This document shows, one piece after another, positions 5,323-10,366 of a stretch of DNA of 64,000 bases. This stretch comes from Selenomonadaceae bacterium (lineage in GTDB: Bacteria > Bacillota > Negativicutes > Selenomonadales > Selenomonadaceae). Each line of letters begins with the position of its first letter. The stretch's first letter is position 1. Below the pieces are notes generated by a model. The model was not told the origin of the DNA. It did no database searches and saw only the letters and a program-made list of their open reading frames with translations. A program made the translations under genes and the position numbers. The stretch covers positions 1 through 64,000 of the forward strand of contig JAQYBD010000091.1 in the NCBI GenBank assembly GCA_029338835.1. The letters run 5' to 3'.

Positions 5323-6801
5323 TCAGAAGATGCCGAGTACATGCCAGTACGTCTGTGCGAAGATCAGCATCAGGACGTACCCGATGATCGTCAAGGGCAG
5401 ACCCACCTTGATGCAGTCCTTGGCCGAGAAGGTCTCGGTGGAAAAGGCCAGGATGCCCTGCGGCGAATTGACGGGCAGGATGAAGCCGAAGCTGACGACG
5501 AACTGCAGGACCATGGTGATGCCGACGATGTTCAGGGCGTCGTTGCCGAGTCCCTGGAGTACGGCAATCATGATGGGGATCATGGAGGAAGCAACGGCCG
5601 TGGCACTGGCAAAGCCGAGGTGGACGACAATGAGGAACAGTGCGAGAATCGCAAAGACCAGGAAGACGCTCATGCCTGCCAGGCCAAAGACGGTCATGAG
5701 CTGGTTGGCCAGCCAGGCCGCGGCCTTGGTCGAAAGCAGGGCCGAGCCCATGCTGATGCCGACACCGAAGAGGATCAGGGTACCCCAGGAGATGCGTGAC
5801 TGTGCTTCTTTCCAGTTCATGATGCCGATGCCGGGCAGCAGCATGAGCGTGACGGCGATGACCGTGGAAGTCGTCGTATCGAGCGGATGCAGCGTCTTTT
5901 CCGTGACCCAGAGGAAGAGCAGGCCGATGGAGATGACCATGAGCTTTTTCTCCGCAGGCTTCATGGGGCCGAGTGCAGCCCGCTCGGTGCGGACGGTCTC
6001 GTCGCCGCCCGCGACTTCCTTCGTCTCCGGCGGCAGCATCTTGAGACAGACAAAATAAAGGAGGATCGACATGATGACGGCATACGGTGCGGCGGCAATG
6101 AACCATTCCGCCCAGGAAATCGTGGCGCCGAGCTGCTTCTCGATAAAGCCCAGCGCTACCATGTTCTGCGCTGCTGCCGTCTTGATGCCGATATTCCAGA
6201 TGCTGGCCACCTGGATGGTGGCGACCATGAGCAGCGCGGCGAAGCGGCTGTCTTTCTTCATCTTGAAAGCGGAAATGATGCCGAGGACAATCGGGACGAT
6301 GCAGCCGACACGCGCAGTAGTACTCGGGACAAAGAAAGCCAGGACGAAACCGACGAAGATCATGCCGGCCAGGATGCGGTTGGTCTTGGCACCGACCTTG
6401 GAGAGAATGAAAAGAGCGATGCGCCGGTCAAGACCCGTGTGCATCATAGCTGCCGCGAGAAAGAGTGCGGCGCCGACGAGTACCGCGCCGTTGCTGGTGA
6501 TGCCGCCAAACGCCATGCCGACGGCTTTTGATGTACCGAGCATTTTATCCGGTGCGGCGGGATTGGGACTCATGCCCAGACAGAGGATCATCAAGGTCGC
6601 AATGATGGCTGCACTGATTGGATAACTGACAGCCTCTGTGATCCAGACGATGATGGCAAATACCAGGATGCCGAGCATCCGATGACCGCCGGTGGTAAGA
6701 TCTGCTGGCGTCGGCAGCAGGAATATCGCCAGCATGGCCAAAGCGGCCAGCAGCAATCCATACTTTTTGGCGAAGGATGTGGAAGTTTTTTCCGTTGCCA
6801 T
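5323..6801 (-). CDS. DASS-family sodium:dicarboxylate/anion symporter (SLC13-like)
   Basis: 492-residue polytopic membrane protein of the divalent anion:sodium symporter family. About a dozen hydrophobic helices are visible. The two family repeats contain the substrate/sodium hairpins: SNGAVLVGAALFLAAAMM and FFVPSTTARVG in the first half, SFGFILPVNSPQGILAF in the second. The family imports succinate, malate, sulfate or similar anions with sodium; the substrate cannot be read from sequence. The start is ATG at 6801, behind AGAGGTGAG; an in-frame GTG at 6810 lies inside that ribosome site. It is divergent from the DauR-like regulator and the PLP-enzyme operon, which suggests it supplies their substrate. 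Confidence 0.88.
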   Translation of the reverse strand: MATEKTSTSFAKKYGLLLAALAMLAIFLLPTPADLTTGGHRMLGILVFAIIVWITEAVSYPISAAIIATLMILCLGMSPNPAAPDKMLGTSKAVGMAFGGITSNGAVLVGAALFLAAAMMHTGLDRRIALFILSKVGAKTNRILAGMIFVGFVLAFFVPSTTARVGCIVPIVLGIISAFKMKKDSRFAALLMVATIQVASIWNIGIKTAAAQNMVALGFIEKQLGATISWAEWFIAAAPYAVIMSILLYFVCLKMLPPETKEVAGGDETVRTERAALGPMKPAEKKLMVISIGLLFLWVTEKTLHPLDTTTSTVIAVTLMLLPGIGIMNWKEAQSRISWGTLILFGVGISMGSALLSTKAAAWLANQLMTVFGLAGMSVFLVFAILALFLIVVHLGFASATAVASSMIPIMIAVLQGLGNDALNIVGITMVLQFVVSFGFILPVNSPQGILAFSTETFSAKDCIKVGLPLTIIGYVLMLIFAQTYWHVLGIF

Positions 6802-6924
6802 AATACTCACCTCTATATTATGAAAGAATACAAGATATACCTTATAGTTCTATTATTCGTGATACAAGAAGGATTTCCTCTTTCTTTTGGCAAGTGTACA
6901 ATATACAAAGAGTCAGGTTTTGCC

Positions 6925-6942
6925 GTATAAAAAATTATATAC
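6925..6942. promoter_or_regulatory. Candidate operator upstream of the DauR-like gene
   Basis: The imperfect palindrome GTATAAAAAATTATATAC lies just 5' of the -35 box at 6944 and in the region shared with the divergent transporter gene. A similar AT-rich palindrome overlaps the downstream operon promoter (7657-7672). Binding by the adjacent regulator is inferred only. Confidence 0.4.
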
Positions 6943-6943
6943 A

Positions 6944-6972
6944 TTGACAATATCAATAAGATTTTATATAAT
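6944..6972 (+). promoter_or_regulatory. Consensus sigma-A promoter of the DauR-like regulator
   Basis: TTGACA at 6944-6949 and TATAAT at 6967-6972 have exactly 17 bp between them, a perfect consensus. The in-frame ATG at 6971 lies inside the -10, which rules it out as the translation start. Confidence 0.9.
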
Positions 6973-6997
6973 GAATGCGAAAGGACTGGTGAACGAT

Positions 6998-7642
6998 ATG
7001 CACCCATTGTTGAAGCGGTACATCCCGTTGGCGGATATGCTGGCCGCTACCTTTGGCGAGGATTGCGAAGTGGTTTTGCACGATCTGGCGGATCCGGAAC
7101 ATTCTGTGGTTTACGTAGCCAATGGGCAGGTGACAGGGCGCCGCATCGGGCAGGGCATAGAACACCTGGTGCGGGAGGTCATGCAGGCAGATGGCCCGGA
7201 ACAGGATTATGCCGTCAATGACTATTTTCATAAGCATGGCCGCCTGATCCGTTCTTCTTCGCTGTTTATTCGCGATGAGGAAGATCATCTGATCGGCGCG
7301 ATGTGCATCAATCTGGATACGACCAGGATCACGCAGCAGATGGCATTCCTGCAGTCCCTGATGCCGAAACCGCCCGAACCTGTTGCTGCACATGAGACGC
7401 AACACGGGAACCGTGTCGAGGATATGGTCATGTCGCTGGTGGACAACATCCTGGCTGGTTGTGATGTGAGACTCTTGACCCGGGAAGAACGGCTGGAAAA
7501 GATCCGTTTCATGCAGAAACGGGGGATCTTCCAGGTGAAGGGAAGCATTGAGCAGGTGGCCAAACGCTTGGGCATCACCAAAGTCACGGTTTACAGCTAC
7601 CTGGATGAACTGCGCAAAAAGTCACAGGACGCGGACGATTGA
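6998..7642 (+). CDS. DauR/YheO-like transcriptional regulator (PAS-like sensor plus HTH)
   Basis: 214-residue regulator. Residues about 1-110 match the YheO-like PAS domain (LKRYIPLADMLAATFG, EVVLHDLADPEHSVVYVANG, FIRDEEDHLIGAMCINLD). The C-terminus from about 155 is the DauR-type helix-turn-helix, with REERLEKIRFMQKRGIFQVK and VAKRLGITKVTVYSYLDELR. Family members such as Pseudomonas DauR sense amino-acid-related ligands and control D-amino-acid catabolism. ATG 6998 is chosen because the earlier ATG (6971) is within the -10 box. It sits between the divergent anion transporter and the PLP-enzyme operon, both likely targets. Confidence 0.85.
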   Translation: MHPLLKRYIPLADMLAATFGEDCEVVLHDLADPEHSVVYVANGQVTGRRIGQGIEHLVREVMQADGPEQDYAVNDYFHKHGRLIRSSSLFIRDEEDHLIGAMCINLDTTRITQQMAFLQSLMPKPPEPVAAHETQHGNRVEDMVMSLVDNILAGCDVRLLTREERLEKIRFMQKRGIFQVKGSIEQVAKRLGITKVTVYSYLDELRKKSQDADD

Positions 7643-7651
7643 ATTTTACCT

Positions 7652-7680
7652 TTGATATATAAATTTTTATATGATAAATA
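7652..7680 (+). promoter_or_regulatory. Promoter with embedded palindrome for the D-amino-acid operon
   Basis: TTGATA (7652-7657), 17 bp, TAAATA (7675-7680). The spacer is filled by the imperfect palindrome ATATAAATTTTTATAT (7657-7672), similar to that at 6925-6942. This fits regulation by the gene just upstream. Confidence 0.5.
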
Positions 7681-7705
7681 TATTTTTCTATAAGGAGGCT
7701 GCTTT

Positions 7706-8815
7706 ATGCATTATATGGATTTGGATACGCCGTACCTGCTCCTTGATGAAAAGAGGCTGCGCAAGAATCTGGCGGATATGCAGGCCTATGCCGATGCGCA
7801 TCATGTAGCCCTGCGCCCGCATACCAAGACGCATAAGATGCCGGCAATCGCGCAGATGCAGATGCAGCAGGGAGCCTGCGGCATTGCTGTGGCCAAGGTG
7901 GGCGAAGCGGAAGAAATGGCCCGGGCGGGGCTAGCCGATATCCTGATTGCCAATGAGATCGTGGGGGTCCAGAAATGGCAGCGCATGGCAGCCTTGGTCA
8001 AGGCGGGATGCCAGCTTTCTTTCGGCGTGGATGCTCCCTGCCAGGTCACGGGCGCCGAGGCAGTCTTTGCCGAAACCGGCGTATGCGTTTCCGTGCAGGT
8101 CGAGATCGAAGTGGGAGAAGAACGATCCGGCATCATCCGCGATGAGGATTTCCTGGCTTTGCTGGCAGCCATCCGTTCCTGTCCGCACATCCATTTCAAG
8201 GGACTCTTCTCTCATGATGGCAATACGTATCGCGCCAAGGATCTGGCAGAATGCAAAGCCCTGGCGGCAAAGGCGCAGCAGCGGACGGTCCATTTTGCTC
8301 AGCTGGCGCATGAGCAGGGCATGGACTGTGAAGTGGTCAGTTATGGTGCGACGCCGACATTCATGAACCATATTGATATCCTGCCTGGCATCACCGAACT
8401 CCGTCCCGGCACGTATGCCTTGATGGATGCTGCGCAGGGCCATGCCATCGACGATTGGTCACGCTGTGCGGCAACGGTACTGGCCACCGTGATCAGCAAA
8501 CCGACGGACACGCGCACTATCCTGGATGTCGGTGCCAAGGGACTGACCAAAGAAACGCGCACCGAGGGGATCTGCTCGACGCGGGGGATGGGCATGCTGT
8601 ATGATTTCCCGGGTGTTTCCATTGATTCACTGTTTGATGAACATGCCATCATCCTGGATCGCGGCTTCCATGACCGGGTCCAGATCGGCGACAAAGTCCG
8701 CATCATCCCCGTGCATATCTGCCCGGTCTGCAATCTTTACGACAAAGCTGCCCTGCTGGACGGGGAGACTGTCAAGGCTATCCTGCCGATTTCCTGCCGC
8801 GGCAAGATCCAGTGA
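7706..8815 (+). CDS. D-threonine aldolase / D-serine dehydratase (DSD1)-family PLP enzyme
   Basis: 369 residues, fold-type III (alanine racemase-like) PLP barrel followed by a D-serine dehydratase-like C-terminal domain. The Schiff-base lysine is Lys41 in LRPHTKTHK. The metal-binding His337-x-Cys339 pair sits in PVHICPVCNLYD, as in metal-dependent DSD1 enzymes. Family members act on D-threonine, D-serine, D-3-hydroxyaspartate or related 3-hydroxy amino acids. Which one applies here cannot be decided. ATG 7706 follows AAGGAGG. It is the first gene of an operon with a RidA protein and a second PLP enzyme. Confidence 0.88.
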   Translation: MHYMDLDTPYLLLDEKRLRKNLADMQAYADAHHVALRPHTKTHKMPAIAQMQMQQGACGIAVAKVGEAEEMARAGLADILIANEIVGVQKWQRMAALVKAGCQLSFGVDAPCQVTGAEAVFAETGVCVSVQVEIEVGEERSGIIRDEDFLALLAAIRSCPHIHFKGLFSHDGNTYRAKDLAECKALAAKAQQRTVHFAQLAHEQGMDCEVVSYGATPTFMNHIDILPGITELRPGTYALMDAAQGHAIDDWSRCAATVLATVISKPTDTRTILDVGAKGLTKETRTEGICSTRGMGMLYDFPGVSIDSLFDEHAIILDRGFHDRVQIGDKVRIIPVHICPVCNLYDKAALLDGETVKAILPISCRGKIQ

Positions 8816-8866
8816 GCGGGAAATGGGTGACTTCTATCGTCATGTGAATAAAGAGGAGGAAACGGT

Positions 8867-9256
8867 ATGGATTTCATTGCCAAGCCGGAGGGTTCCAGGA
8901 ATAAAGGTCATTATTCCCCGGGAGTCGTCATGAACAACATCTTATATGTATCTGGACAACTGCCGCTTGATCCCGTGACCAATCAAGTGGTACCGGGCGA
9001 CGTGCAGGTCCAGACAAGACGCTCGCTGCAGAATGTCGAAGCTGTCTTGAAGCGCGCAGGAACGGATAAAAGAGATGTCGGGCTCTGCCGGGTTTACCTG
9101 TCGGATATCGCACTCTGGGACCAGGTCAATGCGGTTTATGCTGATTTCTTTGGCAGCCATATGCCGGCGCGCGTCGTCGTACCCACCCGTACGCTGCACT
9201 TCGGTGCGCTTGTCGAGATCGAAGCGATGGCAGAACTGCCTGTTGAAGGAAAATGA
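8867..9256 (+). CDS. RidA-family enamine/imine deaminase
   Basis: 129 residues, the normal size for the YjgF/YER057c/UK114 (RidA) family, trimeric cytosolic proteins that hydrolyse reactive enamine/imine intermediates such as 2-aminoacrylate. The family block ILYVSGQLPLDP is at about 25-36. The substrate-carboxylate-binding arginine lies in MPARVVVPT, and the C-terminal VEIEAMAE strand is present. GAGGAGG precedes ATG 8867. Sitting between two PLP enzymes suggests it detoxifies the enamine that one of them releases by beta-elimination. Confidence 0.9.
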   Translation: MDFIAKPEGSRNKGHYSPGVVMNNILYVSGQLPLDPVTNQVVPGDVQVQTRRSLQNVEAVLKRAGTDKRDVGLCRVYLSDIALWDQVNAVYADFFGSHMPARVVVPTRTLHFGALVEIEAMAELPVEGK

Positions 9257-9265
9257 GGAGGCGTT

Positions 9266-10366
9266 ATGATGAAATTCGTTTGTACGGCCTGCGGGCGGGA
9301 AGAAGATACGCATACCCGCAAATCAAAATGCGATTGTGGCGGTCTTTGGGAACTTTCGTACACGCCGCCCAAATTCACGCTTGAGGATATCGACCGGGAT
9401 ACCTGGAGCATCTTCCGCTATCGCAAGTTCATGGCTCTGACGGGCGATACCTGGAGAGACGTTACTCTTGGCGAAGGCATGACGCCCATCATCCCGTTCC
9501 AGGAAGGGGTATGGTTCAAGATGGATTACTTCATGCCCACGCTTTCTTTCAAGGATCGCGGTGCTGCAGTCCTGATTGCCCATGCCAAGGCCATCGGCGT
9601 CGATCGTGTCGTGCAGGACAGCAGCGGCAATGCGGGCAACAGCGTGGCCGCATACTGTGGGAGAGTCGGCATCGCCTGTGATATCTTTGTGCCGGAAGGG
9701 ACGTCCGATAAGAAAATCCGCATGATCGAGGCCCATGGCGCAACGGCGCATATCATCCCGGGCAATCGCGACCACTGTGCCGATGTCTGCCGTGCGACCG
9801 CACGCGAGAAGCAGCTCTACTATGCGAACCATGTCTACAATCCCTTCTTCTATGAAGGAACCAAGACGTACATCTATGAAACGTATGAGCAGCTGCACCG
9901 CATCCCCGAACATATTTTTATCCCTGTGGGGAACGGCACCTTGTTCCTGGGCATCGTGAAAGGCCTGGAACATCTGCTGCAGAGCGGCCTCATCCCGCAC
10001 ATGCCGCAGCTCTATCTCGTGCAGAGCGAACGTTGCCAGCCCTTGCTCCAGGCTATGGCGGAACATGCTGCGCAGATTCGCCCGGGAACATCTTCTGCAA
10101 CACTGGCCGAAGGGATTTCCATTGGCCTGCCCATGCGCAGTGGCGAGATCTTGTCCTATGTGTACCGCTATCATGTCAAGGGCGTGGCGATCCCGGAAGA
10201 AAAGATCCTGCCTGCGCGCAGCAAGCTGGCACGGCGGGGCATTTACTGTGAGCATACGACGGCCGCCATCTATGCCGGGTATGAGGCGTACTGCCAGGAG
10301 CATGGCCCGCTCTCCGATGTGCTGATCTCCATGTGCGGTGCCGGCCTGAAATCCGATCACGGCTGA
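9266..10366 (+). CDS. Threonine synthase-like fold-type II PLP lyase
   Basis: 366 residues. A zinc-ribbon-like start (CTAC ... CDCGG, residues about 6-25) is typical of threonine-synthase relatives. The PLP lysine is in LSFKDRGAA (about 92-100), followed by DSSGNAGNSVAAY (phosphate/substrate loop) and PVGNGTLFLG (PLP-phosphate glycine loop). True threonine synthase is usually near hom/thrB. Here the neighbours are a DSD1-like enzyme and RidA, so a dehydratase, lyase or hydroxyaspartate-acting role is as likely. ATGATG at 9266/9269 follows GAGGAGG. The 10-bp gap from ridA shows tight co-translation. Confidence 0.8.
   Translation: MMKFVCTACGREEDTHTRKSKCDCGGLWELSYTPPKFTLEDIDRDTWSIFRYRKFMALTGDTWRDVTLGEGMTPIIPFQEGVWFKMDYFMPTLSFKDRGAAVLIAHAKAIGVDRVVQDSSGNAGNSVAAYCGRVGIACDIFVPEGTSDKKIRMIEAHGATAHIIPGNRDHCADVCRATAREKQLYYANHVYNPFFYEGTKTYIYETYEQLHRIPEHIFIPVGNGTLFLGIVKGLEHLLQSGLIPHMPQLYLVQSERCQPLLQAMAEHAAQIRPGTSSATLAEGISIGLPMRSGEILSYVYRYHVKGVAIPEEKILPARSKLARRGIYCEHTTAAIYAGYEAYCQEHGPLSDVLISMCGAGLKSDHG

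Follow-up and report, generated by a model that had tools for sequence, protein, structure and literature searches.

What is the function of a short operon in which two unrelated pyridoxal 5'-phosphate (PLP) enzymes flank a RidA-type deaminase? Such an operon lies in the window analyzed here, the first 64,000 nucleotides of contig JAQYBD010000091.1 of a Selenomonadaceae bacterium of gut or rumen type (assembly GCA_029338835.1), where the gene for a YheO/DauR-type transcription regulator is followed by those for a DSD1-like PLP enzyme of fold type III, RidA, and a threonine-synthase-like PLP enzyme of fold type II that we call ThrCL, with a DASS-family anion transporter encoded divergently. All five genes named in a preliminary description of the locus were recovered at this place, each beating its Pfam cut-off with a highly significant E-value. 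That description interpreted the locus as one for breaking down a D- or beta-hydroxy-amino acid by way of an enamine, with RidA taking part, and this reading is supported by the analysis that follows. We regard the generic mechanism, dehydration of a beta-hydroxy-amino acid through an enamine that is hydrolyzed by RidA, as probable. The full claim, in which the substrate is beta-hydroxyaspartate or beta-hydroxyasparagine, is put forward more tentatively, at somewhat less than an even chance. Searches of open papers, subscription journals lying outside the coverage, returned no account of these genes as a set.

Among 380 Negativicutes genomes, about 50 encode ThrCL homologues with 47–78% identity (67 at E <= 1e-60), in a patchy distribution; further homologues were found in Lachnospiraceae, a spirochaete, and Burkholderiales/Sutterellaceae. 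In the neighborhoods that were fetched, three genes recur alongside ThrCL in no fixed order, those for the YheO-type regulator, RidA, and the DSD1-like enzyme. Of the 380 Negativicutes, 20 have a member of the DSD1 subfamily, and 14 of these also encode ThrCL or a close relative (wide set; Fisher p = 1.3e-7 for genomes, 1e-4 for genera). When ThrCL was defined strictly, the co-occurrence was 10 of 20 (p = 5e-5 by genome, 0.011 by genus). Full-length copies of the two genes are adjacent in 14 genomes from two classes, and in a sample of Clostridia, where five genomes have DSD1, ThrCL adjoins it in three and lies on another contig in a fourth (G380). RidA and YheO are accompanied by DSD1 without ThrCL in L136 and L141 and by ThrCL without DSD1 in, for example, L084, L087, L093, and L098. 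Since either PLP enzyme can stand alone with RidA and YheO, the two appear to supply a single RidA/YheO system, as alternatives or as complements. The concern that the genes might occur independently is met by the recurrence of RidA, YheO, DSD1, and ThrCL together in varied orders and with a common operator. As a five-gene unit, the proposal stood only in part, because the DASS gene is not shared and DSD1 is optional, most ThrCL loci lacking it. Judged by gene content, the conserved module is a YheO/DauR-type regulator, RidA, and ThrCL, with the DSD1-like enzyme as an optional member. Two other sets of genes were considered as partners and rejected: a GH1 glycosidase (c5, L070) and a flavin mononucleotide oxidoreductase with an M29 peptidase (L096 type) both lie beside ThrCL in loci without RidA or YheO and look like chance neighbors.

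Whether the DSD1-like enzyme is an aldolase or a dehydratase had been left open, and its active-site residues favor the latter. The protein combines Ala_racemase_N and D-ser_dehydrat domains, its family can be aligned with D-threonine aldolase, BhcC, and D-threo-3-hydroxyaspartate dehydratase, and its AlphaFold model (mean predicted local distance difference test score, pLDDT, of 88) has 4v15, 6qkb, and 3wqc as best Foldseek matches. The metal ligands are a His and a Cys in the dehydratase and a His and an Asp in the aldolase, and the dehydratase lacks the aldolase base His193 (PMC4401734). In the enzyme encoded here the predicted ligands are His337 and Cys339 and the aldolase base is missing; the same combination, His-x-Cys without His193, was observed in all full-length DSD1 members, which are therefore predicted to be dehydratases. 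The DSD1-like protein is accordingly best described as a predicted Zn-dependent beta-hydroxy-amino-acid dehydratase. Its identity as D-threonine aldolase or BhcC was rejected because both the His-x-Asp ligands and the catalytic His193 are absent, and in the case of BhcC also because model NF045642 gave 202 bits against a cut-off of 690. With the Delftia D-threo-3-hydroxyaspartate dehydratase and the Zn-dependent D-serine dehydratases Dsd1p and chicken DSD it shares the fold, the PLP lysine, the His-x-Cys metal site, and an HxG-[NHS]-x-Y segment replacing the aldolase base. It differs from them in being only ~28% identical and in sharing its operon with ThrCL, RidA, and a regulator of the YheO type.

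ThrCL has in common with threonine synthase (ThrC) its fold and the SFKDRG motif that holds the PLP lysine. Its AlphaFold model (pLDDT 92.5) has a ThrC-type fold, and its best match in the PDB is M. tuberculosis ThrC, at 31% identity. An assignment as threonine synthase (EC 4.2.3.1) was nevertheless rejected, as the protein scores below every NCBIfam ThrC cut-off (PRK06450, 254 vs 301; TIGR00260, 139 vs 167). The ThrCL proteins form a well-supported clade separate from ThrC that spans Negativicutes, Clostridia, Sutterellaceae, and one spirochaete, and the four cysteines of their N-terminal CxxC...CxC zinc-ribbon-like motif are invariant in the aligned set. In place of the ThrC segment NSV-NPxR-EGQKT, which we take to contact the substrate phosphate from the residue roles in Thermus threonine synthase, the family has NHVYNPFFYEGTKT, with NSV-NPxR changed to NHVYNPFFYEG in about 50 members. 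The canonical segment is kept by ThrCs in the PDB and by the true ThrC of locus L021 (5202-6287). The preliminary description had also asked whether ThrCL might be the only threonine synthase of the genome. It is not the only candidate, as a canonical ThrC of 510 aa is encoded on C98 (L006). Judged by its motifs, scores, and phylogeny, ThrCL is not the cell's threonine synthase. Separate genes of the same genome encode IlvA, CysK, and diaminopropionate ammonia-lyase, the first and last assigned by reading their translations and CysK by length only. We found no assigned function for ThrCL proteins. They recur in gut and rumen bacteria, and the module marks them as probable eliminases with a short list of substrates.

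Several neighborhoods of ThrCL-type genes are of interest in their own right. In a Burkholderiaceae metagenome-assembled genome (L021, 3540-7189), ThrCL and RidA adjoin genes for a canonical ThrC and an apparent homoserine kinase, ThrB. In Selenomonas ruminantium (L061, 3086-4279), an AlaX-type alanyl-tRNA-editing-like protein is encoded directly downstream of ThrCL, perhaps guarding translation against a serine-like analogue. TauE/SafE-type permeases adjoin distant ThrCL relatives in L112 (7057-7824) and L115 (7129-7896); these relatives are ~40% identical and have no zinc-ribbon match. At another locus of the genome studied here (L005), the diaminopropionate ammonia-lyase gene is followed by one for a hydrolase of the M20 type, the two together forming a second pathway with a PLP eliminase.

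RidA belongs to the Rid fold family according to PF01042, and its TIGR00004 score of 105.7 bits is just below the cut-off of 106.25. Its PAR-V motif, in which we presume the catalytic arginine to lie, was aligned with solved Rid-family members, and the conserved arginine is present. Imine hydrolysis by Rid proteins requires such an arginine, and RidA genes have been described in clusters with genes for enamine-forming PLP enzymes of the threonine dehydratase type (PMC4433059, the text of which mentions neither threonine synthase nor hydroxyaspartate). Clusters of the tdc type, with RidA and a threonine/serine dehydratase, likewise place a PLP eliminase and RidA in one operon; the partner enzymes here belong to two other families. 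ThrCL is predicted to be a beta-eliminase (ammonia-lyase), and beta-elimination to an enamine is likely because RidA is its most constant enzyme partner.

The regulator has the PAS_6 plus HTH_22 architecture of YheO/DauR proteins. Regulators of this family are linked to D-amino acids, with DauR controlling the D-arginine dauBAR genes of Pseudomonas; the target operon here is a different one, and the operator was derived in the present analysis. A dyad search upstream of the regulator genes, compared with shuffles, yielded the palindrome ATATAA-N4-TTATAT, which scored far above the shuffled sequences. Of 29 loci with YheO, 23 had, close to module genes, a site matching at 11 or more of the 12 positions, compared with 1 of 50 loci without YheO (p = 2e-13); the latter are a reasonable though imperfect control, since promoter regions rich in A and T vary among genomes. 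The N4 center consisted of A or T in 46/46 sites. Three predicted operators lie at the locus (Table 1). O3 is the sole perfect copy in the 2.24-Mb genome, and O1 and O2, spaced 29 bp apart, bracket or overlap a perfect promoter, a tandem spacing of 29–31 bp that recurs in other loci. A wider regulon was sought through perfect operator sites in 19 genomes, and the off-module sites gave no consistent gene, so that the operator looks module-specific. The longest open reading frame of the regulator begins at TTG 6887, and in this long form the PAS_6 domain begins at residue 42. Because of the domain position and the perfect promoter, the start is very probably ATG 6998. By its position the promoter is that of the regulator, and it probably serves the whole operon. 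The simplest reading of the operator layout is a self-regulating repressor, and an inducer-dependent activator is an alternative that the layout may also fit. Since the operator links a regulator of the YheO family with a specific set of targets, the ligand of the regulator can be found. At one other locus (L189, 5033-7204), a second, divergent YheO-type regulator adjoins a threonine-dehydratase-like PLP enzyme, which hints at a broader link between YheO regulators and PLP eliminases.

The guess that a hydroxyaspartate is the substrate gained contextual support from relatives of the module. In three Anaerovibrio-type genomes of genus g3 (L064, L065, L095), a CN-hydrolase is encoded between DSD1 and RidA. 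The best solved match of the L064 protein is the omega-amidase mouse NIT2, end to end (251 bits, residues 6-272), and the L065 and L095 copies were found by their similarity to it. Omega-amidase converts 2-oxosuccinamate, the keto acid that dehydration of beta-hydroxyasparagine leads to, into oxaloacetate. Asparaginase II is encoded 20 bp after the YheO gene in L136 and in the vicinity of DSD1 in L139 and L105, and GltP/DctA-family carriers adjoin DSD1 in L095, L141, and L146. In L142 (768-2893), a gene for which the iminosuccinate reductase BhcD is the best model (326 bits vs a cut-off of 500) starts 6 bp behind DSD1, possibly a nitrogen-conserving variant. Together, the amidase, asparaginase, carrier, and BhcD-like neighbors point to an aspartate/asparagine skeleton. 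Precedents exist for the chemistry: dehydration of beta-hydroxyasparagine by a DSD1-family enzyme yields a keto acid from which transamination gives Asn, hydroxyaspartate is formed from beta-hydroxyasparagine by asparaginase, and the Delftia dehydratase accepts both D-threo and L-erythro hydroxyaspartate (PMC8071972).

In the pathway we propose, the YheO/DauR-type regulator would bind the paired ATATAA-N4-TTATAT operators and control its own gene, the three-enzyme operon, and possibly the divergent DASS transporter. The substrate would enter this genome's cell through that dicarboxylate-type carrier, and the DSD1-like enzyme and ThrCL would dehydrate a beta-hydroxy-amino acid and then remove its amino group, each probably acting on a different stereoisomer of one substrate. 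Both would release an enamine for RidA to hydrolyze to a 2-oxo acid and ammonia, such that beta-hydroxyaspartate and/or beta-hydroxyasparagine would yield oxaloacetate or 2-oxosuccinamate, the latter being finished by the omega-amidase in relatives that have one. The sequences establish which genes are present, that they are conserved and co-occur, the operator, the dehydratase-type residues, and the distinction of ThrCL from ThrC; the ThrCL reaction, the substrate, whether regulation is positive or negative, and the cargo of the DASS carrier are predictions. The beta-hydroxyaspartate cycle of Paracoccus (BhcABCD) also combines a D-amino-acid enzyme of fold type III with a PLP lyase of fold type II, and the BhcD-like gene of L142 is a further likeness. 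Membership in that cycle was rejected, as the module has no bhcA, bhcB, or bhcD and its DSD1-like enzyme has dehydratase rather than aldolase residues. With RidA in place of the cycle's reductase, nitrogen would be released rather than conserved. If the hydroxyaspartate/hydroxyasparagine reading is correct, it would explain the anaerobic removal of amino acids derived from hydroxylated host proteins or host excretion. A more specific version is that ThrCL is a new activity in the threonine synthase branch, an ammonia-lyase for L-side beta-hydroxyaspartate/beta-hydroxyasparagine (or similar), which forms with the D-side DSD1-like dehydratase, RidA, and the YheO regulator an undescribed anaerobic hydroxy-Asp/Asn pathway of gut and rumen bacteria, with substrates that would include beta-hydroxyasparagine excreted by hosts; we consider this version rather unlikely.

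Several observations weigh against the proposed pathway. Common regulation is the one link suggesting that the DSD1-like enzyme and ThrCL act on the same compound, and the residues of ThrCL say more about what it is not (ThrC) than about its identity. Because D-Ser and D-Thr are further substrates of Dsd1p (PMC8071972), the substrate cannot be read from the fold. Amidase and asparaginase genes, which support the proposal, come from three genomes each, and two of the asparaginases are 2–3 genes away. In L140 (5563-13607), a DSD1-subfamily gene lies beside one for the D-cysteate sulfo-lyase CuyA (511 bits vs a cut-off of 450), with amidohydrolase, M20 peptidase, and TRAP-type carrier genes nearby; this locus possibly encodes a pathway for cysteate or an N-modified acidic amino acid, and substrates may therefore vary among related modules. 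Finally, the DASS transporter had been described as part of the module, a claim that was not borne out: one other locus (L106) has a DASS protein, a distant one at 92 bits. An apparently closer L106 link, 817 bits in an hmmsearch with a two-sequence profile, was dropped given the 92 bits of the direct phmmer comparison. The transporter itself is a clear DASS protein (TIGR00785, 246 bits vs a cut-off of 198.6; PF00939, 377 bits), and its nearest solved relatives, chloroplast DiT2.1 and LaINDY-type dicarboxylate carriers, suggest a dicarboxylate as its cargo.

The leading alternative is detoxification or use of D-Ser/D-Thr, with the DSD1-like enzyme as a plain D-Ser/D-Thr dehydratase, ThrCL as a second serine/threonine-type ammonia-lyase, RidA clearing 2-aminoacrylate/2-aminocrotonate, and the DASS protein as a bystander or an exporter of the acid product. 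We view it as possible, if on the unlikely side. It fits the regulator family's link to D-amino acids, the lack of a DsdA-like gene among the genome's five PALP matches, the D-Ser and D-Thr activity of DSD1-family enzymes, and the clustering of RidA genes with threonine dehydratase-type enzymes, and it leaves the omega-amidase, asparaginase, BhcD-like, and GltP/DctA-type neighbors unexplained. Distinctly less likely is a cysteate-type acidic sulfur analogue or another beta-substituted amino acid from which sulfite, a thiol, or an amine would be eliminated. The CuyA gene and TRAP carrier of L140 and the permeases of TauE/SafE type near L095 and next to the distant ThrCL relatives of L112 and L115 would suit such a substrate; however, CuyA was seen in one genome only, the TauE link belongs to a different clade at ~40% identity, and the amide hydrolases are again unexplained. 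That the DSD1-like enzyme is a racemase or epimerase supplying ThrCL's isomer, rather than a second dehydratase, appears improbable. The fold-III family does include racemases, and DSD1 is often missing where ThrCL is found, which would follow if the sole role of DSD1 were to broaden the stereochemical range, but both dehydratase metal ligands are conserved, and the presence of DSD1 with RidA and YheO in L136 and L141, which lack ThrCL, suggests that DSD1 itself feeds RidA. Although threonine synthases are the closest models and folds to ThrCL, it is very improbable that the cluster serves threonine supply with ThrCL as a second, or misplaced, threonine synthase, given the sub-cut-off scores of ThrCL, its lost phosphate motif, and patchy occurrence (67/380 genomes), the canonical ThrC of the genome, the lack of hom/thrB in the module, and the L021 locus, where ThrCL adjoins canonical ThrC and ThrB-like genes.

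Table 1. Genes and predicted regulatory sites of the locus, in window coordinates.
Feature	Position	Strand	Basis and remarks
DASS-family anion transporter	5323..6810	-	Divergent; TIGR00785, PF00939, PDB search
Predicted operator O1, GTATAAAAAATTATAT	6925..6940	.	11/12; DASS-regulator interval, directly ahead of the -35 box
Putative sigma-70 promoter, TTGACA-17-TATAAT	6944..6972	+	12/12 consensus match; inside the long open reading frame
Predicted operator O2	6954..6969	.	10/12; overlaps the -10 box
YheO/DauR-type transcription regulator, PAS_6 + HTH_22	6998..7642	+	PF08348, 127 bits; PF13309, 64 bits
Predicted operator O3, ATATAAATTTTTATAT	7657..7672	.	12/12; directly upstream of the DSD1-like gene
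DSD1-like fold-III PLP enzyme	7706..8815	+	PF01168 + PF14031; aligned sites; AlphaFold; Foldseek
RidA-type enamine/imine deaminase	8867..9256	+	PF01042, 110 bits; PAR-V motif
ThrCL, fold-II PLP enzyme	9266..10366	+	PF00291, 227 bits

The genes from the regulator to ThrCL are closely spaced (gaps of 63 bp between regulator and DSD1, 51 bp between DSD1 and RidA, and 9 bp between RidA and ThrCL), and the module is inserted between asd and ireB/ruvX. Two genomes of the same genus agree with the window in asd and the downstream genes and lack the module at that site, with no ThrCL or DSD1-subfamily match anywhere in either genome; the module is therefore, by this comparison, an accessory island. 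The asd-ireB junction holds only short open reading frames in the first of these genomes and a LysR regulator with an aconitase-type large/small subunit pair in the sister species G139 (L161, 3237-6159), and thus looks like a variable site. We propose that the operon is accessory and horizontally mobile. An aconitase-type pair of the same kind also follows the DASS gene in L106. Elsewhere in the window, a tandem pair of tRNA-Lys(CTT) genes lies at 4-156, and in genome G006, repeated peptides in open reading frames (CTKQEFRRELQ; L060, 3830-5345) suggest a CRISPR (clustered regularly interspaced short palindromic repeat) array a few kb from ThrCL.

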